A stretch of 64,000 bases of DNA from Mariniflexile sp. TRM1-10 (GTDB taxonomy: Bacteria > Bacteroidota > Bacteroidia > Flavobacteriales > Flavobacteriaceae): the NCBI RefSeq assembly GCF_003425985.1, contig NZ_CP022985.1:2898001-2962000 (forward strand), in the 5' to 3' direction. The position numbers and the translations under genes are program-made. The notes under the pieces are model-generated. The model made no database searches, was not told the origin of the DNA, and saw only the letters and a list, made by a program, of their open reading frames with translations. Of the stretch, positions 7,039 through 64,000 are shown piece by piece (the stretch's first letter is position 1; each line of letters starts with the position of its first letter).

Positions 7039-9984
7039 TTAAAATTTAAAATTAGCTCCAACTAAAATGGTTCTAGGTCTGGGATACACGACGTTATCAA
7101 TTCCTATTGATAATGAAGCTTCTGAATCATTATCTGTTACCTCTGGATCTAATCCACTATAATTTGTTAAAGTGAAGACATTTTGTAGTCCACCCCATAT
7201 GCGTATACTTTTTAAGGAATTTGATATCTCATTAAAAGTATAGCCCAAAGTAATATTGTCCATTCTTAAAAAAGAGGCATCCTTAATGTATATATCTGAA
7301 GTGATAACATCCGACGTTCTTTGGAAATTGGTCTCTAATATGGATGTTGGAAGATTGCCAAGTACGGCATTATCGAGCAGTTTTTCGTATTGTGTTTTAG
7401 ATGAGTTTACGTTGTCATAAACATAGTTCCCTATATTGGCTCTCAAGTTGAAAGCTAAATCAATATTTTTATAGTTAATGTTGGATTGGAATCCCAATAT
7501 AACATCAGCTCCTGGGTTTTCTTTTATGTAGCGATCGTTGTCATTAATAATGTTATCACCGTTTAAGTCTGCGTAAGCACCTTCAATTGGATTTCCAGAA
7601 GGATCATATAATTGTTTGAATACATAAAAGGAATTGGGAGCTTCGCCCTCTCTGTGTATCTGGATGTTATTTCCAGTTCCTCCAGAGATTCCACCAGTTC
7701 TGACATCTTGTCCAAGTGCTAAATCTTTAATTTCTCTGTCTAAAAAGGTGGCGTTAAAGTTTAAATTAACATTAAAATCCTCTTTTTTAACCACATCAGC
7801 ATTTAAAGAAAACTCTAAACCTTGAATTTGTAATTCTCCAATATTTTGAATGATGCTATTTGAAAAGTTAGAAGCATCAGCTACCGGTGCTACGAATAAT
7901 AAGTCTTTGGAACTTTTCTTAAAGACATTTAATGACCCCGAGATTCTATCATCAAATAAACCATAATCAATACCGAATTCAATAGTCGTTGTTTCTTCCC
8001 ATTTCAAGTCTGGATTAATTTCTGAGGGAATTAAAGATTCAATTATAGAATTCCCAAATTGATATTGGGAGTCCGATCTTCCGCCTCTATATCTACTTAA
8101 GAATATATCCTTTTCAGATACCTCTTGTTGTCCAGTAATCCCGTAACTGGCTCTTAATTTTAAGTTCGAAATGGTGTTGGAGTTTTTTAGAAAGTCTTCA
8201 TCACTAATATTCCAAGCGATAGCACCAGCAGGAAAGTCACCCCATTGATTTTCTTTGCTAAAGCGAGAAGAACCATCACGTCTGTATGTAAAAGTTAATA
8301 AATATTTATCTAGTAAAGTAACATTCGCTCTACCAAAGAAACCTATTAAAACAATATTTGGATCAGAGTAAAAGTCATCAACACTTAAAGGGTCTGTTAA
8401 ATTTCTACCATTTTTTCCACTGTTAGTAAATTTTTGATATGAATAACCTGCAGTTAATTCAGTTCGAAAATCATCAAACTCTTTATCATATGCTAAGTAT
8501 CCATCAAGTAACTTATTAGTTCTCTTTTGGAAATTTTGCTTGTACGAACCTTTAAAAAGTTGATCAGCATCTGTCGTTGCTACTAGCGCATCCGATATAT
8601 CTAATCCTTTAGATTCCGTTTCATCATAACCTATATTCACTACTGCTTTTAATTCTGGGAAGAAATGGAATTTATAATCAAAATTTAAATTACCATACGA
8701 TCTATTGGCATCTCCAGTATTGGTTCTTTGCAGTAAAGAGGCAACGGGGTTTGTCGTTCCGTTCGCTACAAGTGTTCCACTTCTATGTTGGTAATAGCCT
8801 CCAAAAGGAGACGATGGATCGTAAACTGGTTGTGATGGATCATACACTAGTGCTGCATTTATTTGCGAAGCATCGGCAAATCGGTTATCTTCAAAAGCAA
8901 GGTTAGCATTTAAGTTTACTTTTAAGTGGTTATCAAAAAAAGTTGGGTTTAATGCTAAGCTTAAATTTCGTCTATCAAACTTTGAAGTTTCTAAAGTACC
9001 TTCTTGATTGGTTGTTCCAAATGAAAATCTTGCTGGCAAAACTTTAAATAGAGCTCCTTGCATAGAAACATTGTGCTGCGATGACATGGTATTTCTAAAT
9101 ATTTCGTCCTGCCAATTTGTACTGGCACTTCCCAATAAATCAGTATTTATTGTTGTCCCATTAATGGGTTGGGAATTTATTAGTTGTCTAAATTCATCTC
9201 CAGTAAAGACATTTATATGGTCAGACACCTCTGAAAAACTGAATTGTGTATCATAAGTCGCACTAAAAGTAGACTTCCCTTTTTTGGTAACAATAATGAT
9301 AACACCATTTGATGCCCGTGAACCATAAATAGCGGTTGCTGAGGCATCTTTTAAAACAGTAAACGAGTCAATGTCATTTGGGTTTATACTGGCCAAAACA
9401 CCTCTAGATCCGCTCACACCATCATTGGTAATAGGCAAGCCGTCAATAATAATAAGAGGGTTATTGGACGCGTTTATAGACGAACCACCTCTAATTCTAA
9501 TTTCAGAGCCCGAACCAGGTGCGCCACTGGTAGTAACCGTGACGCCAGATACCCGACCATTTAGTAAGTTTTCTGCGGTTACAATGTTACCTTTCGTAAA
9601 ATCTTCAGATGTCACCGATTCTACAGAGCCAGTAGCATCCTTTTTAGTAGTGGAGCCATAACCAATCACTACAACTTCAGATAATTGAGCAGTATCTTCT
9701 TCTAATACGACATTCAAAACGGTTTGCCCTGAGTAAATAATTTCTTGTGATTTATAACCTATAAAAGAAAACAATAGCACATCACCGTTATTTACTTCAA
9801 TTTGATATTCACCATCAAAATCTGTAGCTGTTCCTGTGTACGTGCCTTTAATAAGCACGTTAACACCTGGGATAGGTAAAGATGTTGATTGTTCTGTTAC
9901 TGTTCCTTTTAAATTTGTTTGTGCTTCTAAGATGGTGGGCACAAAAAGCAGAGAAAACAGTATAGCATTAATAATTGTCTTCAT
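7039..9984 (-). CDS. susC: SusC/RagA-family TonB-dependent oligosaccharide transporter
   Basis: From the ATG at 9984 the protein has 981 residues and a signal peptide ending LEAQ. It then has a carboxypeptidase-regulatory-like domain (TNLKGTVTEQSTSLPIPGVN onward), a TonB-box-like stretch (LSEVVVIGYG), a plug domain (NGRVSGVTVTTSGAPG, LIIIDGLPI, ATAIYGSRASNGVIII) and a long C-terminal barrel ending GANFKF. It imports glucans through the outer membrane together with SusD. The open frame extends upstream to a TTG at 10038, but that adds a hydrophilic stretch before the signal peptide, so 9984 is preferred. It is the first gene of the minus-strand sus operon, with an operator-like palindrome upstream. 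Confidence 0.96.
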   Translation of the reverse strand: MKTIINAILFSLLFVPTILEAQTNLKGTVTEQSTSLPIPGVNVLIKGTYTGTATDFDGEYQIEVNNGDVLLFSFIGYKSQEIIYSGQTVLNVVLEEDTAQLSEVVVIGYGSTTKKDATGSVESVTSEDFTKGNIVTAENLLNGRVSGVTVTTSGAPGSGSEIRIRGGSSINASNNPLIIIDGLPITNDGVSGSRGVLASINPNDIDSFTVLKDASATAIYGSRASNGVIIIVTKKGKSTFSATYDTQFSFSEVSDHINVFTGDEFRQLINSQPINGTTINTDLLGSASTNWQDEIFRNTMSSQHNVSMQGALFKVLPARFSFGTTNQEGTLETSKFDRRNLSLALNPTFFDNHLKVNLNANLAFEDNRFADASQINAALVYDPSQPVYDPSSPFGGYYQHRSGTLVANGTTNPVASLLQRTNTGDANRSYGNLNFDYKFHFFPELKAVVNIGYDETESKGLDISDALVATTDADQLFKGSYKQNFQKRTNKLLDGYLAYDKEFDDFRTELTAGYSYQKFTNSGKNGRNLTDPLSVDDFYSDPNIVLIGFFGRANVTLLDKYLLTFTYRRDGSSRFSKENQWGDFPAGAIAWNISDEDFLKNSNTISNLKLRASYGITGQQEVSEKDIFLSRYRGGRSDSQYQFGNSIIESLIPSEINPDLKWEETTTIEFGIDYGLFDDRISGSLNVFKKSSKDLLFVAPVADASNFSNSIIQNIGELQIQGLEFSLNADVVKKEDFNVNLNFNATFLDREIKDLALGQDVRTGGISGGTGNNIQIHREGEAPNSFYVFKQLYDPSGNPIEGAYADLNGDNIINDNDRYIKENPGADVILGFQSNINYKNIDLAFNLRANIGNYVYDNVNSSKTQYEKLLDNAVLGNLPTSILETNFQRTSDVITSDIYIKDASFLRMDNITLGYTFNEISNSLKSIRIWGGLQNVFTLTNYSGLDPEVTDNDSEASLSIGIDNVVYPRPRTILVGANFKF

Positions 9985-10040
9985 ACATTTTTTAGTTAAA
10001 GTCTTAATTTTTAGTTTAGTTATATTTTCACTTCTCAAAT

Positions 10041-10048
10041 CAAAACTA
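10041..10048 (-). promoter_or_regulatory. Candidate -7 box of the susC promoter
   Basis: On the minus strand this reads TAGTTTTG, matching the Bacteroidota -7 consensus TAnnTTTG, about 57 bp upstream of the susC ATG. I see no clear -33 TTTG at the right distance, which would suit a promoter that needs an activator. Confidence 0.4.
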
Positions 10049-10093
10049 TGTAAACAAATTGTTAAGAAATAATTATAAGTTACGAAATATTTA

Positions 10094-58389: not shown

Positions 58390-58783
58390 TGAGGTTATGA
58401 GGTTATGGGGTTATGAGGTTAGATAGTTAGATTGCTGTTTTATTAAACCATGACAAACCTAGAACTTAGTGCCTTTCACGATTCCCTTTTCACGATTTTT
58501 GCTCGGCTATGGGTTTGGGGTCTATTTTTTGGATGGGGGTTTGTTCGAACAAAGGGCGAACATGGGTGGGATTAAACTAAATAAACATGGTTTTAAAAAA
58601 GAAATATGTTTTGAAAGTTTTTAAAGCATTTATTTATATATTGCATGGGATAAGAATTTTCATCTTTTTGAAAGAGGAAGAAAGAAGGTGAAAAACTAAT
58701 GATGTTTTACTGTATTTATGTGATATGGATAGTGGATGTTACTTTATAATGAATTGGCATAATATAAAACGACTGAGACAATA
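58386..58783. other. Spacer leading into the cassette region
   Basis: It begins with tandem GAGGTTATG and TTAGATAG words (58386-58440) and the CACGATT words seen elsewhere. TTTGTTCGAACAAA (58540-58553) is a perfect 14-bp palindrome. Near 58635 TATATATTGCATGGGATAAGAA resembles part of the spacers between later cassettes. The 5' limit of the first cassette could not be fixed. Confidence 0.5.
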
Positions 58784-59131
58784 ATGAATATATTAGAAAG
58801 AGCTGAACAAGGACAATCGTTTTTAGTGGCTGACGATGGACAGTTTTTAGGAAAGTTGAGTTTAAACCAGTACGATTCAGAATCTATATCAAACAAATAC
58901 GGATCATATGGAAGTCAATATGCTTCAACTTCTATTAATAATCAGTATAGTAGTTATGGAAGTAGATACTCTTCATTAAGTCCATACAACCAATATACTA
59001 GCACACCTCCGACAATATATTTAAAAGGACGAAAATATGGTTATCTAACAAAAAACAAATACAAATCAGGAGTAACTCTTGATCCTGATAACTTAGTTAA
59101 TTGGATGCGTTCAAATAATTTAAATTACTAA
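58784..59131 (+). CDS. Small YGSYGS-repeat protein (cassette region)
   Basis: This 115-residue protein starts with a short helical segment (MNILERAEQGQSFLVADDGQ), has a middle rich in Ser-Tyr-Gly repeats (NKYGSYGSQY, NQYSSYGSRY), and ends with a conserved-looking tail (GYLTKNKYKSGVTLDPDNLVNWM). I recall similar proteins in environmental bacteria but no function. It is separated by 2 bp from the next gene, so the two are one unit. Confidence 0.75.
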   Translation: MNILERAEQGQSFLVADDGQFLGKLSLNQYDSESISNKYGSYGSQYASTSINNQYSSYGSRYSSLSPYNQYTSTPPTIYLKGRKYGYLTKNKYKSGVTLDPDNLVNWMRSNNLNY

Positions 59132-59133
59132 AT

Positions 59134-59763
59134 ATGGAGTTTAGTGAATATTTAAAGCTCTTAGGTGCAATATTAACTTCAGTAGGCGGAGCTACAGTAG
59201 TAATTATTGCACTATCAAAATGGTTTGGGGATTTTTTGTCTAAAAGGTTATTAGATAATTATAATAACAAGCATAAAACAGAATTAGAAGGTATAAAAAT
59301 TAAATATCAAGGAGAACTTGAAAAAACTAAAACGGACCTAGAAAAAGCAAAGTCACAATTTATACGCTATTCCGAAAAACAATTTGACCTGTATAATGAC
59401 CTTTGGAAAGTGCTTTTATATACCAAACATCAAGCAGATGAATTATGGGCAAGTGCTATTCCAGAAAAAATTCCTGCATTTGGAGAACAGATTAAATTAA
59501 CAAGAGATGCTATTGACGATAATTTATTGCTAATTGAAGAAGAGCATTACGATAAGCTTATCGAATTGATTACTCAATTTGACCAATTTCAGTTTGGTAA
59601 AATTAAGTTAGTTGAAATAAGAAGTAAACCATTAGAAGAGAGAGAAAATATTACAACAGAACAAGCCAAAAGGACTATAAATCAAAATAAAAGAACAAAA
59701 GAAAATTTTGATAATCTTTTAATGGAAATTGGTCAGTCATTTAGAAATCAAATAAAAGGATGA
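59134..59763 (+). CDS. Membrane-anchored coiled-coil protein of unknown function
   Basis: This 209-residue protein has one N-terminal membrane segment (AILTSVGGATVVIIALSKWF), a charged coiled-coil (ELEGIKIKYQGELEKTKTDLEKAKSQF, shortened here in description) and a helical cytoplasmic part. No family is recognised. It ends just before the first cassette spacer. Confidence 0.72.
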   Translation: MEFSEYLKLLGAILTSVGGATVVIIALSKWFGDFLSKRLLDNYNNKHKTELEGIKIKYQGELEKTKTDLEKAKSQFIRYSEKQFDLYNDLWKVLLYTKHQADELWASAIPEKIPAFGEQIKLTRDAIDDNLLLIEEEHYDKLIELITQFDQFQFGKIKLVEIRSKPLEERENITTEQAKRTINQNKRTKENFDNLLMEIGQSFRNQIKG

Positions 59764-59767
59764 ATAC

Positions 59768-60031
59768 AGTGTCCAATATTGGTTGCACAAGCCCATAATT
59801 TTATAAAAAACAAGAAATAAAAGCGCCCTTTTAAGGGCGTTTGTTTTTTATGGAAGTTATGCAATCTAAGTTCAAGACTGTTGTAAGGCCTTAAACATGG
59901 CCTATGATGGCTTTTCAGCAAAAAGCAGAGACCTCGGTAAATCCATAGGCGAAAAAGTAATATATTGCATACATAAACGATATGCTCCGATGGAGTTGCT
60001 GTTTGTTGTGGTTATACGATTGTTGGCACTC
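59768..60031 (+). repeat. Cassette spacer 1 (attC-like)
   Basis: It runs from AGTGTCCAAT to GTTGGCAC. The order is a GTTGCACAAGCCC word, the palindrome CGCCCTTTTAAGGGCG (59824-59839) with a T run, a purine-rich middle, GTAATATATTGCATACATAA, and GCTGTTTGTTGTGGTTATAC. A leader ORF (59990-60037) lies at its end. Confidence 0.7.
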
Positions 60032-60037
60032 ATATAA
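59990..60037 (+). CDS. Leader ORF of spacer 1 (15 aa)
   Basis: Reads MELLFVVVIRLLALI and stops 5 bp before the cassette gene ATG. Equivalent MxLLFVVV frames occur in all five spacers. Hypothetical. Confidence 0.35.
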   Translation: MELLFVVVIRLLALI

Positions 60038-60042
60038 AAAAA

Positions 60043-60834
60043 ATGAAATTTGAAACTTCTAACTCTGAATTTTTACTCCCTTTTTTAATCGTAATTGGAA
60101 TTTCTGTACTTTTTGCGATTTACATCTTAAGACATAAAAAGGAAAAAATTAAGTTTTTCTTATACAGGTCAATTGTTATTTTCTTAATTATATATTTTCC
60201 AATTGTGGAGTATTGGTCGATATGGACTTCGTGGAGTATTTGGCCAAATGATTTCTCTCCCGAAAACCAAAGTATATTATCCAGTTCCAGCGGAATAGCT
60301 TATGGCAATTATCCGATACTAAATGGAGTGTTTAATCTACTAAGTATTATTTCTGAACTATTATTAACATTCTCAATAATTCTATTTATTTCATTAATTA
60401 ATACACACGTTCAAAAAAACAAAATTCTGAATTGGATACCTTTAATAAATATTTTCAGCATTGGAATAATTCTTTCTAAAGTTTATAAATTTAAATGGTC
60501 ATTTAAGATAATTGTTATTTTTTGGGCATTAATCACTTTCATGTGGGTGTATTATAGATTTTTAGCTTTTCCTCTTTATTTATTAGGCATTGATAGTATT
60601 ACCATTCTAGATAAGATTTTGTTTCCTGATTTTAACGAAACGCAACTATTGGAAGACGATTATATAATTGGATATACATATTTAGCTGACATTTTGAAAA
60701 TAATACTACCTGCATTAAAATTTATTAGCGGATTGTTAACTTTAATAATTGTTAAAAAAATACAAGTGCCACCACCGGTAACCGTTGCACAAGCCCATAA
60801 TTTTATAAAACAAGATATAAATGCGCCCTTTTAA
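60043..60834 (+). CDS. Cassette gene 1: polytopic membrane protein
   Basis: This 263-residue protein has about six hydrophobic segments and no recognised family. Its last 22 residues (from VPPPVTVAQAHNF on) are encoded by the following spacer, and its stop codon lies inside the spacer hairpin, so the natural C-terminus may have been extended by cassette joining. Confidence 0.7.
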   Translation: MKFETSNSEFLLPFLIVIGISVLFAIYILRHKKEKIKFFLYRSIVIFLIIYFPIVEYWSIWTSWSIWPNDFSPENQSILSSSSGIAYGNYPILNGVFNLLSIISELLLTFSIILFISLINTHVQKNKILNWIPLINIFSIGIILSKVYKFKWSFKIIVIFWALITFMWVYYRFLAFPLYLLGIDSITILDKILFPDFNETQLLEDDYIIGYTYLADILKIILPALKFISGLLTLIIVKKIQVPPPVTVAQAHNFIKQDINAPF

Positions 60835-61033
60835 GGGCGTTTGTTTTTCATGGAAGTTTATTGTAATCTTAGTTCAAGGCGATTAGAGTGTAGTAAAACA
60901 TGGCCTATGAGGCTTTTAAGTAAAAAGCAAAGACCTTTGTAAATCCATAGGCGAAAAAGTAATATATTGCATACATAAACGATATGACTACGATGAAATT
61001 GCTGTTTGTTGTGGTTATACGATTAATAGATGC
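60765..61033 (+). repeat. Cassette spacer 2 (attC-like)
   Basis: Same plan as spacer 1: AGTGCCACCAC at its start, the CGCCCTTTTAAGGGCG hairpin at 60824-60839, the ATATATTGCATACATAAACG segment, and TTTGTTGTGGTTATACGAT near its end. Its leader frame is in phase with the next gene. It begins inside cassette gene 1. Confidence 0.7.
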
Positions 61034-61046
61034 AATTTGGCAAAAA

Positions 61047-61427
61047 ATGAACAATCGAACTATAGAAATAACATCTCGCTTTGAAAAATCTTGGAGCGAT
61101 ACAGAAAAGATTTTTGATATGCTATTGGAAAATGGATTTGAAAGATTATTTCCAGTTCGTCAATTTATTATAGAATTAAAAGAAAAAGGAGAAAATCAAA
61201 ATTTCAGAATTGGAACTTCAATGTATCGACTTATTTTTTCTCGCTCTATCGAACACGGATTGCGTGACGACCAAAAACAGTTAATGATTGATACTCTTGA
61301 TAAGAATGATTATCAAATAGTTTTAAGAGACGGATTTAAAAAATATAGAGAATACAGAATTATCGACCTGAATGATATCAAACTGACTAAATTATTGGAA
61401 ACTCTAAAAGGAACTTTAGTAGACTAA
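61047..61427 (+). CDS. Cassette gene 2a: unknown protein (126 aa)
   Basis: From the ATG at 61047 the product is a 126-residue soluble mixed alpha/beta protein (NNRTIEITSRFEKSWSDTEK at the start). An upstream in-frame ATG at 60984 would add a hydrophobic leader MTTMKLLFVVVIRL from the spacer. I recognise no family. It is 3 bp from the next gene, giving a two-gene cassette. Confidence 0.6.
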   Translation: MNNRTIEITSRFEKSWSDTEKIFDMLLENGFERLFPVRQFIIELKEKGENQNFRIGTSMYRLIFSRSIEHGLRDDQKQLMIDTLDKNDYQIVLRDGFKKYREYRIIDLNDIKLTKLLETLKGTLVD

Positions 61428-61430
61428 ATT

Positions 61431-61676
61431 ATGGCATGTCAAATCTGTCCGAATTGTAAAACAGATGCTTTCAATTGGAAAGTGGATAAAGAAGAGTCAC
61501 CTCTAACAATTTGGGATTGTGGAAATTGCAATTATCGTGCATTCGAGAATGAATCTGACGAACGGAATTGCACAAAATGCGGAAAGAAAACGGAATCGAA
61601 ATTAAAAGATGACAAAAAAGAATATTGGTGGTGTTCGAATTGTAACACGACTGAAAAAAAAAAACAGCACCTCTAA
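61431..61676 (+). CDS. Cassette gene 2b: small zinc-ribbon-like protein
   Basis: This 81-residue protein has three CxxC pairs (CPNCK, CGNC, CTKCG) and a final CSNC, suggesting two zinc ribbons. Its C-terminal residues lie at the edge of spacer 3. Function unknown; it may bind nucleic acid or partner protein. Confidence 0.7.
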   Translation: MACQICPNCKTDAFNWKVDKEESPLTIWDCGNCNYRAFENESDERNCTKCGKKTESKLKDDKKEYWWCSNCNTTEKKKQHL

Positions 61677-61824
61677 CTACGGTAACTGTTGCACAAGCTC
61701 ATAATTTTATAAGAACAGGACACCTCTTGTAAGTCCATAAGTAAAAAAGTAATATATTGCATGTGTAAAGAATATAATTACAATGGTGCAGCTGTTTGTT
61801 GTGGTTGTTTAATTGTTGTAATGC
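61666..61824 (+). repeat. Cassette spacer 3 (short, hairpin lost)
   Basis: It runs from AGCACCTCTAAC to GTTGTAATGC. The GTTGCACAAGCTC word and the AAGTAATATATTGCATGTG segment are kept, but the region with the terminator palindrome has been deleted. Leader frame at 61783-61812. Confidence 0.7.
61783..61812 (+). CDS. Leader ORF of spacer 3 (9 aa)
   Basis: Reads MVQLFVVVV then stop. The same MxxLFVVV pattern as the other spacers. Hypothetical. Confidence 0.3.
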   Translation: MVQLFVVVV

Positions 61825-61840
61825 ATTTAAAAACAGACCG

Positions 61841-62269
61841 ATGAAACTCATAATAACTACTTTGTTTTTAATTTCTAGCTTGACAATATTCTCACAATCT
61901 AACCAAATAATTGGCGATTATATTCGAACTCTTGGAGATGAAGAAGCGCACATAATTAAATATAAACTGACCTTAAATCAAGATGGGACTTTCTTTTTTC
62001 ATTCATATTCAAATAATAAAAAAGGGATTCCTCCAGAGGTGAATAAATACGGAAAAGGGACATGGAAAGCGGATAAAAATATCATATCGTTTTTCACAGA
62101 TAAAAAAAATGACATTGACGAAAAACATAATTTAGATTTTGAAAATTCCAAAGCGAGGTTTATATCTAAATCCCCAAGAGATAAAACAGACAAAATAATT
62201 AAAACCAGTCTTCGGTTTTTTGAATCAAAAATATTTTGGATTGAAAAGCTGCAGATTTTTAAAGAATAA
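61841..62269 (+). CDS. Cassette gene 3: secreted lipocalin-like protein
   Basis: From the ATG at 61841 this 142-residue protein has a signal peptide (LFLISSLTIFSQ) and a beta-barrel-like pattern (IIGDYIRTL, KLTLNQDGTFFFHSY, GTWKADKNIISFF) found in small lipocalin-type proteins of Bacteroidota. Function unknown. Confidence 0.7.
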   Translation: MKLIITTLFLISSLTIFSQSNQIIGDYIRTLGDEEAHIIKYKLTLNQDGTFFFHSYSNNKKGIPPEVNKYGKGTWKADKNIISFFTDKKNDIDEKHNLDFENSKARFISKSPRDKTDKIIKTSLRFFESKIFWIEKLQIFKE

Positions 62270-62274
62270 AAAAC

Positions 62275-62598
62275 GCATTACAACACCGTTTAAGCGCAAT
62301 AACGGTGAATTTATGTTTGAATAAAAACCAGTTGTCAACACAGTAGCCTTTGCGCAAGCCCATAATTTTATAAAACAAAATATAAATGCGCCCTTTTAAG
62401 GGCGTTTGCTTTTTGTGGAAGTTTTGCAATCTAAGATCAAGGCTGTTATAGCGCAGTAAAACATGTCCTATAATGGCTTTTAAGCAAAAAGCAGAGACCT
62501 TTATAAATCCATAGGTGAAAAAGTAATATATTGCATACATAAACGATATGACTACGATGGGGTTGCTGTTTGTTGTGGTTGTATGGGTGTTGTACGCA
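62275..62598 (+). repeat. Cassette spacer 4 (attC-like)
   Basis: It runs from GCATTACAAC to GTTGTACGCA. After an extra 70-bp piece it has GCGCAAGCCC, the CGCCCTTTTAAGGGCG hairpin (62389-62404), GTAATATATTGCATACATAA and TTTGTTGTGGTTGTATGGG. Its leader frame (from 62548) is in phase with the next gene. Confidence 0.72.
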
Positions 62599-62601
62599 AT
62601 G

Positions 62602-63435
62602 ATGAAAAACCTACTTATAATATTCATTCTTCCATTAATCTTTACAGCTTGTAAAGAAAATTCAAAGGACACTAAACCGATTGAAAAACTGGAATTCTAT
62701 TCTGACAATAGCAATTTGACTTTCAAAAAGAGAGTGATACTTGAGAATTGTGATAGCCTTTTTTATTTCTACAGAAACGGACAAATATTTAAAAGAGGGA
62801 AAATCCAAAAAAACGAAAAGCCATTCGGAATTTGGAATTTATACTCAAATGATGGAAAATTAAGGGAAATTAGAGAATGGTTTGTGATAGACGGACATTC
62901 GAGAATGAATAGAGCTTGGTTTCTTGATAAAAAAGGAGACACACTTGCTTGGAGAGATCAAGATTCGATTTTTAACCAAAAAGAATTTGTAAATGACACT
63001 TTAGGAACACGAGCAACCAACTACAATGTTTTCGACTTTAACAAAGACACTATCGACTTAAATGAACCAATTCGTGGAGTTGCATATTGTAATTCTCGTC
63101 GGATAAGAGATTATGATTCTCAAATCAGAGTCTTTTTCCATAGCGAAAGTGAAAATTTCAATTCACCTTTTCCAAATGACAGTCTGATTAGAACAGACCA
63201 TTTTGACAACTTAAAAACTGATACTATTAATCAAAAATGGTTTACTGATATTAACCCTAAAAGATATGGTCACGTATCAATTTTTGGAAGTTGGTTTAAA
63301 AAGCCAGGGAAAAAACTTTTAAGAGGATATATGGAAGAATACTCTTATGGACCTTTTAAGGATAAAGAAATTGACAGTATGACTGCAAGAGTTTATTTTG
63401 AGAAAACGATTTACGTAAAAGACACGATTAAATGA
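62602..63435 (+). CDS. Cassette gene 4: MORN-repeat-like lipoprotein
   Basis: The preferred start is the ATG at 62602 (an adjacent ATG at 62599 is possible), giving about 278 residues with a lipoprotein signal ending LIFTAC. The middle shows MORN-type repeats (YFYRNGQIFKRGKIQ, KPFGIWNLYSNDGKLREI), as in YwqK-like antitoxin or envelope proteins. An upstream ATG at 62548 would add the spacer-encoded MTTMGLLFVVVVWV. Function unknown. Confidence 0.72.
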   Translation: MKNLLIIFILPLIFTACKENSKDTKPIEKLEFYSDNSNLTFKKRVILENCDSLFYFYRNGQIFKRGKIQKNEKPFGIWNLYSNDGKLREIREWFVIDGHSRMNRAWFLDKKGDTLAWRDQDSIFNQKEFVNDTLGTRATNYNVFDFNKDTIDLNEPIRGVAYCNSRRIRDYDSQIRVFFHSESENFNSPFPNDSLIRTDHFDNLKTDTINQKWFTDINPKRYGHVSIFGSWFKKPGKKLLRGYMEEYSYGPFKDKEIDSMTARVYFEKTIYVKDTIK

Positions 63436-63441
63436 AATCAC

Positions 63442-63660
63442 TGCGTACAACACCGGTAACCAGCTCTACGAAGCCAGCTCAGCATTCTGTGACTTCGTAG
63501 CAATATTATAACTAAAGTAAACATATATAAGAAACTACATTTTGCAATAAGGCGTGTTTTTTTATTTAATAGCTTATTAAAAAGTAATATATTGCATACA
63601 TTATACGATATAACTACGATGGGGTTGCTGTTTGTTGTGGTTATATGATTGTTGTACACA
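63442..63660 (+). repeat. Cassette spacer 5 (diverged)
   Basis: It runs from TGCGTACAAC to GTTGTACACA. The hairpin half is replaced by unrelated sequence, but the last 85 bp (AAAAAGTAATATATTGCATAC to GTTTGTTGTGGTTATATG) match the other spacers. Leader frame at 63619-63648 reads MGLLFVVVI. Confidence 0.68.
63619..63648 (+). CDS. Leader ORF of spacer 5 (9 aa)
   Basis: MGLLFVVVI followed by TGA. Same pattern as leaders in the other spacers. Hypothetical. Confidence 0.3.
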   Translation: MGLLFVVVI

Positions 63661-63681
63661 AGCTAAAAACCGAGAATTGAA

Positions 63682-64000
63682 TTGAATAAAAAGATATTAA
63701 TTGGAACTCTAATCGGAGTAATTTTATTCTCATTTTTCGGATTTTGGATTTCGGGTTTCTTCTTATTTGAAAGTCCGAATGAATTAATAATCAAAAAGGA
63801 ATGTGATTACGAAGGATTACGGAAAGTCGTTATGTATGAACTAAATGGAAATGCAGTAACGAATGGAGCAATTCACATTTCTGCATCTGATTGTTCTGAA
63901 AATAAAATTGAAAACTCTGAATTAATATTTACTGTTAGCTCATCGAATATTAAAATATCGGACGTAAATTTTGAGTGGACAAGCTTTGACACTTTGACAA
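63682..64000 (+). CDS. Cassette gene 5: membrane-anchored protein (cut by window edge)
   Basis: A frame starting at TTG 63682 (no good ATG nearby) runs to the right edge without a stop, about 106 residues. It begins LNKKILIGTLIGVILFSFFG, one hydrophobic segment, followed by a soluble part (FESPNELIIKKECDYEG). Family unknown. Its cassette should end beyond the window with TGTGTACAAC if the pattern holds. Confidence 0.55.
   Translation, partial: MNKKILIGTLIGVILFSFFGFWISGFFLFESPNELIIKKECDYEGLRKVVMYELNGNAVTNGAIHISASDCSENKIENSELIFTVSSSNIKISDVNFEWTSFDTLT

Follow-up and report, generated by a model that had tools for sequence, protein, structure and literature searches.

An integron-like gene cassette array in Mariniflexile sp. 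TRM1-10, probably built by a tyrosine recombinase other than IntI

The window analysed here is a 64,000-nt stretch of the Mariniflexile sp. TRM1-10 genome (NZ_CP022985.1, positions 2,898,001-2,962,000), and its right end is occupied by short plus-strand genes separated by five spacers of related sequence. The spacers (sites A1-A5; Table 1) exist where a preliminary description of this DNA, which read the locus as an integron-like array of gene cassettes, had placed them. A 23-nt core is common to all five sites and lies within a longer 3′ part with a GTT end, and a 55-nt left part is common to four of the five. The GTT ends at positions 60024, 61817, 62591 and 63653, and site A2 contains AAT (61025-61027) where the others have GTT. 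Terminator-like hairpins are observed in three type A sites (A1, A2 and A4), and the window's array contains eight terminator-like structures, with 2.0 expected (both strands). A sigma-70 scan of the same part found 26 promoters versus 28.6 expected, which is the chance level; the scan used the sigma-70 consensus, and the promoters of the host phylum, Bacteroidota, are of another type. An Rfam scan of the window at gathering scores gave no match.

Table 1. Features of the array in the right end of the window (window coordinates)
Feature	Position	Strand	Domain search
Two genes (115 and 209 aa); unit preceding the first clear site	58784-59763	+	no Pfam match, E 0.01
Site A1; left (type A) half; attI-like 3′ part 59952-60024; GTT 60022-60024	59768-60031	+	
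Terminator-like hairpin in site A1	59821-59842		
Cassette gene, 263 aa, hydrophobic (by eye); frame extends into site A2	60043-60834	+	no Pfam match, E 0.01
Site A2, type A; AAT for GTT; terminator-like hairpin 60823-60840	60765-61033	+	
Two-gene cassette: 126 aa, unknown; 81 aa, Cys-rich, zinc-ribbon matches sub-threshold	61047-61676	+	
Site A3, short type A	61666-61824	+	
Cassette gene, 142 aa; NlpE N-terminal domain barely above cut-off (23.5 bits vs 22)	61841-62269	+	Pfam
Site A4; terminator-like hairpin 62388-62405	62275-62598	+	
Cassette gene, 277 aa, lipoprotein-like start (by eye)	62602-63435	+	no Pfam match, E 0.01
Site A5; left end type A-like, right part type B-like	63442-63660	+	
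Start of next unit; gene continues beyond window end	63661-64000	+	

A search of seven stretches on both strands with a 27-nt pattern of the site 3′ end (at most six mismatches) located 27 sites on one strand over 38 kb (array A, C1:2,958.0-2,995.9 kb). The window holds the first five, and array A continues beyond the window end to C1:2995937 with 22 more. Array B contains 13 sites (C1:4,648.6-4,664.0 kb), and four smaller places contain 1, 1, 1 and 3 sites; neither the seventh stretch nor the opposite strand of the seven stretches contains a match to this pattern. Some of the 27 sites in array A are degenerate, and sites A10 and A12 lack a GTT-like end. A first genome-wide site search gave at least 43 matches (40 of 105 candidates scored), with identities of up to 89% over most of the query. 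Further spacer copies, which the preliminary description proposed to seek to the right and across the genome, are thus present. The one-direction organization that it proposed is also borne out, with sites on a single strand only and the open reading frames (ORFs) of at least 60 aa in arrays A and B distributed as 66 on the plus strand and 10 on the minus strand. Of 20 proteins compared with Pfam, 11 remain without a match at E 0.01, and six score above a family's cut-off. One unit of array A includes a DDE transposase gene (L031:9428-10612), and an RNA 2′-phosphotransferase (Tpt1/KptA) gene lies within a cassette (L032:9920-10477). Conserved gene order, named in advance as an observation that would speak against cassettes, was not found at the nucleotide level in a blastn comparison (E 1e-10, at least 150 nt) of the units of arrays A and B with those of the sister genome; matches occurred only where the attC model described below finds attC sites.

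In a cassette, the first bases after the GTT are expected to recur as their reverse complement (R′′) at the left end of the unit's own site, and an exact R′′ is present in two of the four testable cassettes of the window. In site A4, the R′′ (62275-62284) reads GCATTACAAC, which corresponds exactly, in reverse complement, to the cassette start at 61815 (GTTGTAATGC). In site A5, the R′′ reads TGCGTACAAC and corresponds in the same way, again exactly, to the cassette start at 62589 (GTTGTACGCA), with 18-nt arms that are 94% complementary. Over the 38 intervals of arrays A and B, a 7-nt R′′ test is weakly above chance (8 exact; permuted mean 1.8, maximum 7, 2000 permutations), and a 10-nt test (GTT plus seven bases) was therefore used instead. 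An exact 10-nt R′′ is found in 8 of the 38 intervals (permuted mean 0.37, maximum 3, 3000 permutations) and an R′′ with at most one mismatch in 16 (permuted mean 2.6, maximum 10). This complementarity across units is the signature of integron cassettes and is not due to chance. Some intervals without an exact R′′ hold another attC inside, and others may have diverged. The R′/R′′ complementarity in the genome's own arrays, together with canonical attC-type hairpins at other places of these arrays and in relatives, supports the earlier view of the units as integron-like cassettes.

The same signature bears on a reading of the spacers as a single transposable element, copied or in remnant form, that lies among unrelated genes, a reading which draws on the high identity among sites and on the DDE transposase within one array unit. 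A copied element, however, would not bear the reverse complement of the first bases of the neighbouring unit, and the sites are all in one orientation. The transposon remnant, already named as a danger to the cassette interpretation in the preliminary description, was rejected on the R′′ excess and the single orientation and is considered highly improbable.

In relatives, a tyrosine recombinase gene is followed by a mostly palindromic attI-like site with a GTT end and then by cassettes, and the recombinase gene has the direction of the cassettes. The GTT junction, chosen by eye, lies 22-69 nt past the recombinase stop in 35 loci, and by a blind rule it lies up to 81 nt past it. Thirty of the 35 loci, those with at least 600 nt downstream, were scored; an exact 10-nt R′′ occurs at the array head in 16 (permuted mean 0.04, maximum 1, 5000 permutations) and one with at most one mismatch in 24 (permuted mean 2.2, maximum 8). 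From a blind set of 40 further loci, 26 were kept after the exclusion of 14 with no clean ORF by the filter, and 25 were long enough. The blind rule found an exact R′′ in 13 of these 25 (swapped mean 0.37, maximum 3, 2000 swaps) and one with at most one mismatch in 17 (swapped mean 6.1, maximum 15). Within the 45 nt before the GTT, an inverted repeat with a median of 10 pairs (6 in shuffled sequences) is observed among 33 loci chosen for R′′. It exceeds all 50 of its own shuffles in 19 of the 33 loci and does not in the other 14, and it mostly stops 2-6 nt short of the GTT. Five loci (L219, L221, L225, L230 and L234) belong to a recombinase subgroup with the C-terminus ..MIYTHVS/T..NPFD or NPLD and show no R′′ in the blind test; AAACCATCGTTAT is found downstream in some of them. 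At three further loci (L090, L139 and L140), the contig stops at the attI-like site or within it, which is where a break would be expected if arrays interrupt assembly.

The window's genome contains remnants only of the platform recombinase. A C-terminal remnant with two stops (C1:2715609-2715821, minus strand) shares 68% identity with residues 295-362 of the sister's recombinase and directly abuts a site termed "site C1". An attI-like site adjoins the recombinase gene in relatives; in the window's genome, it adjoins only this remnant. Two more C-terminal fragments are 41% and 46% identical, and the longer recombinase matches in this genome correspond to the genes for XerC and XerD and to recombinases that are more distant; neither an intact platform recombinase nor a TIGR02249 match above the cut-off was found in it. 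The sequence at which the remnant ends also follows an intact 368-aa gene in the sister genomes G003 and G002, where it leads to the GTT; a second G003 copy (L089) has a broken start of the recombinase frame. With remnants only of the recombinase, which is what the proposed genome search for a tyrosine recombinase brought to light, the array is integrase-less. The option of an integrase-less cluster (CALIN; at least two attC sites with the integrase absent nearby) suggested in the preliminary description hence applies, with 27 and 13 sites and 13 canonical attC matches.

This loss is also what would be expected if a real array in this species were now changing mainly by homologous recombination between its long fused sites (described below) and no longer by site-specific recombination, a possibility that is compatible with the cassette origin. 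The sites reach about 320 nt, and some units are duplicated with their sites (A2/A7, 96%; B3/B12, 97%); the two-gene cassette of the window (61047-61676) has its 96% identical copy after site A7 (C1:2964846-2965626). Few units are duplicates, however, and part of the units keep the R′′ to their own start, and homologous recombination as the main present source of change appears possible but rather unlikely. A 1-kb segment with a degenerate site is also duplicated in array A with 98% identity (C1:2968.4-2969.4 and 2971.6-2972.6 kb).

Relatives of the recombinase at E 1e-50 or better are present in 168 of 299 Flavobacteriaceae genomes. Among the 120 listed of 3,841 proteins, the descriptive names are XerD, tyrosine-type recombinase/integrase and site-specific integrase, and the named relatives come from Galbibacter, Tamlana, Algibacter and others. 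The recombinase contains PF13495 and PF00589 domains, and residues R218, K243, H307, R310, H333 and Y342, which we take to be the catalytic residues, are invariant in 20 recombinases. Its closest solved structures by sequence are XerA and Xer-like tyrosine recombinases (4a8e and 5hxy). IntI4 (2a3v) aligns in two stretches, with 65 residues where the recombinase family profile has 22. KGxDR and LRHS are separated by 65 residues in all 30 rows of L088-L128; in ten rows they are 107 residues apart, and each of these ten scores above the TIGR02249 cut-off (314-509 bits). In a quick tree of 69 rows (Shimodaira-Hasegawa-like approximate likelihood ratio test, SH-aLRT, support only; some long branches; 13 ids left out beforehand), the ten 107-residue rows group in a separate clade (SH-aLRT 99) that includes none of the 18 cassette-linked rows. 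The recombinase thus lacks the additional domain that is required of an IntI, and its assignment as an IntI was rejected on domain length (65 versus 107), TIGR02249 score and tree position. Judged by its anatomy, the system works like an integron; by the 65-residue spacing and the tree position, it falls outside the definition used in surveys.

On a classical integron reading, an IntI that has the additional domain would have assembled the array and would since have been lost or be encoded elsewhere, and the Xer-like neighbour would be incidental. The attC architecture (R′′, L′′, L′ and R′ with a bottom-strand fold) is that of integrons, and TIGR02249 is the best NCBIfam match of the L088 recombinase (186.9 bits in two stretches; cut-off 265). 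An Xer-like gene nevertheless heads the array in the 29 loci with an exact R′′ (16 + 13), and TIGR02249 at E 1e-40 matches 0 of 299 Flavobacteriaceae genomes, a weak result since the control genomes gave no match either. A classical origin is accordingly held to be improbable. The preliminary description had also allowed for a different cassette-shuffling system; this is borne out in part, insofar as the recombinase that heads the arrays in relatives is not IntI.

Cassettes with attC sites that combine R′′/R′ complementarity and a folded bottom strand are present in relatives. Among 14 first attC sites, 13 have a length of 125-135 nt (about 131 nt) and one has 53 nt. The bottom strand folds more stably in all 14 (the shuffles keep dinucleotide blocks only), and the L region is paired in 12, with an L stem of 16 bp in the first attC sites. 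An alignment of 25 attC sites was assembled from the 13 longer first sites, the 53-nt one being excluded, and from 12 of 14 further candidates (L211 and L212 excluded). In its structure, 96.4% of cells are paired (shuffled, 79.0%; slid, 29.7-53.0%), and 13 of 21 pairs are doubly changed (covariation score, 0.467 versus 0.144). An attC model built on these sites (R1) matched 98 times (E up to 0.1) across 20 sources, which include the training loci L088, L135, L141 and L148, and all matches lie on the strand expected from the array. R1 matches 13 places elsewhere in arrays A and B (E up to 0.026) and gives nothing at E 0.1 in the window, including its array part; the window sites are therefore attC-like by R′/R′′ complementarity and the shared 3′ hairpin only. 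R1 matches occur in all six genomes of the genus (from at least 20 to at least 79 per genome, E 0.01), in 171 of 199 Flavobacteriaceae genomes (E 1e-8) and in 61 of 247 genomes of a phylum sample, 18 of those 61 being Flavobacteriaceae; the match counts are lower bounds, with at most 150 (genus), 17 (family) and 13 (phylum) candidates per genome scored. Strong paired R1 matches are also observed outside the large arrays of the window's genome (C1:2169844-2172185, minus strand, and 3770603-3772039, plus strand).

In the window sites and in 15 sites of the sister array, the left part of an attC is joined to a copy of attI. The 3′ part of the genome's own sites matches the attI of the sister genes and the remnant-adjoining site C1. 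In 14 of the 15 sister sites, the attI copy begins with about 10 codons of the end of the recombinase gene; an R′′-type left end is recognized by eye in about 11 to 13 of the 15, and the GTT belongs to the attI copy. In several fused sister sites, the R1 match leaves out the R boxes and covers only model positions of about 19-116 (L082:10020, L083:2903, L083:13226 and L084:1115). Judged by sequence, the window sites are composites in which an attI fragment replaces attC downstream of the gene, and each unit thus ends in an attI-like site, as in delta-attI cassettes. Within the genus, the 3′ part is matched in four of six genomes and is numerous in two (40 and 22 matches). No copy of the attI 3′ end was found downstream of the recombinase in any of the 30 named loci scored (34 given), and fused sites are thus not seen outside the genus. 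As a guess, the fused sites may go back to a unit of recombinase gene and attI that acted like a cassette and later lost the gene. A degenerate attI-like copy (TTTATATATTGCATGGGATAAG), recognized by eye, lies upstream of the first clear site (58590-58745) and is perhaps the left end of the array.

The best explanation, with a probability of roughly 85%, is an integron-like cassette system with a non-IntI recombinase, in which the window would hold the start of an array left behind in a genome that no longer has the recombinase. In relatives, the tyrosine recombinase, which has no IntI-specific domain, is encoded just upstream of an attI-like GTT site and in the same direction, and circular cassettes, each with one or two short genes and an attC-type site, would be inserted at the GTT beside attI and stack into arrays. 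The bottom strand of the attC-type site would fold into an R/L-box hairpin, and this recombinase presumably performs both insertion and excision via the folded bottom strand, as in integrons. The anatomy, the R′/R′′ pairing, the covariation, the co-location with the recombinase and the remnants in the window's genome are direct observations. Several results weigh against this explanation. No recombination, circle or empty site was seen. An exact R′′ is absent from 30 of the 38 own intervals and from 12 of the 25 blind loci, and the filter found no intact gene in the 14 of 40 fetched blind loci that were dropped. R1 detects none of the five window sites; with filters off, its best hit, at 60684-60790, has E 0.17. 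The most stable fold of two of the 14 first attC sites (L141 and L102) does not include the L pairing. The 18 cassette-linked rows are intermixed in the tree with unlabelled relatives, many of them with R′′ unchecked.

Three group II introns in the sister genome G003 are 99.7-99.8% identical, and each is located in the R′′ of a different site, opposite to the cassettes (L088 ~8194-10054, L089 ~7843-9700 and C1 ~3,669.0-3,670.9 kb of G003). They are inserted between NNAA and C, at TGT/T on the bottom strand (boundaries by eye), and the reverse transcriptase of one of the three was checked. The introns may act as an independent reader of the attC fold and are counted in favour of the integron-like system.

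A broader proposal, to which we give slightly better than even odds, is that of a second kind of integron, in which a recombinase lineage separate from IntI recombines folded attC hairpins without the IntI domain; the system would be spread through most Flavobacteriaceae and would also occur elsewhere in the Bacteroidota. What serves as attI may simply have been the 'attC' of a first cassette carrying the recombinase gene, and the fused sites of this genus may be made in place from the host attI. If true, a cassette system is near-universal in a large bacterial family (attC model in 171 of 199 genomes), integron recombination can do without a domain that is described as necessary for it, and flavobacteria may shuffle genes more than recognized. 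Since the fused sites visibly contain the host attI, the origin of cassettes and the likeness of sites within arrays would also become testable.

IntegronFinder recognizes the integrase by its extra domain (PMC9668308, in part), and the IntegronFinder 2.0 survey reports a single complete integron for Bacteroidetes proper, that of Salinibacter ruber (PMC9024848, in part); a review counts Bacteroidota among the integron-bearing phyla (PMC8618304, in part). No title or abstract on such a flavobacterial system was found in the open PMC literature, which does not establish its absence from print. The arrays resemble chromosomal integrons and CALINs in their one direction, short and often unknown genes, GTT junctions, R′′/R′ pairing across the cassette, covarying bottom-strand attC hairpin and integrase-less arrays. 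They differ in a recombinase that has no IntI-specific domain (65 versus 107 residues) and is placed apart from the IntI clade, in first attC sites of near-constant length with a 16-bp L stem and in an attI inverted repeat located mostly 2-6 nt before the GTT. The recombinase gene has the cassette direction, as in Treponema integrons, in which intI is transcribed towards attI (PMC3607928, in part); the Treponema recombinase is named intI there, whereas the flavobacterial one is not IntI. Compared with XerA and the Xer-like proteins (4a8e and 5hxy), the recombinase has about 90 further N-terminal residues and adjoins a cassette array.

The fused sites resemble the delta-attI cassettes of class 1 and 2 integrons, in which the cassette-end site is replaced by a piece of the platform attI (PMC12901181, in part). 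The attI piece there measures 14-244 nt, the three cassettes tested were all excised by IntI1, and 96 and 14 such cassettes are reported in 1,685 and 57 integrons (same source). Unlike these, the fused sites here stand in long arrays on the chromosome, with 27 and 13 sites in the window's genome and 15 in its sister, and about 10 recombinase codons are copied along in 14 of the 15 sister sites. The sister-genome introns, in R′′ at TGT/T on the bottom strand and opposite to the cassettes, are like the group IIC-attC introns, which are described as inserting in this way at attC sites (PMC7923331, in part). Their host sites here, in contrast, are not IntI attC sites, and the likeness is one of position.

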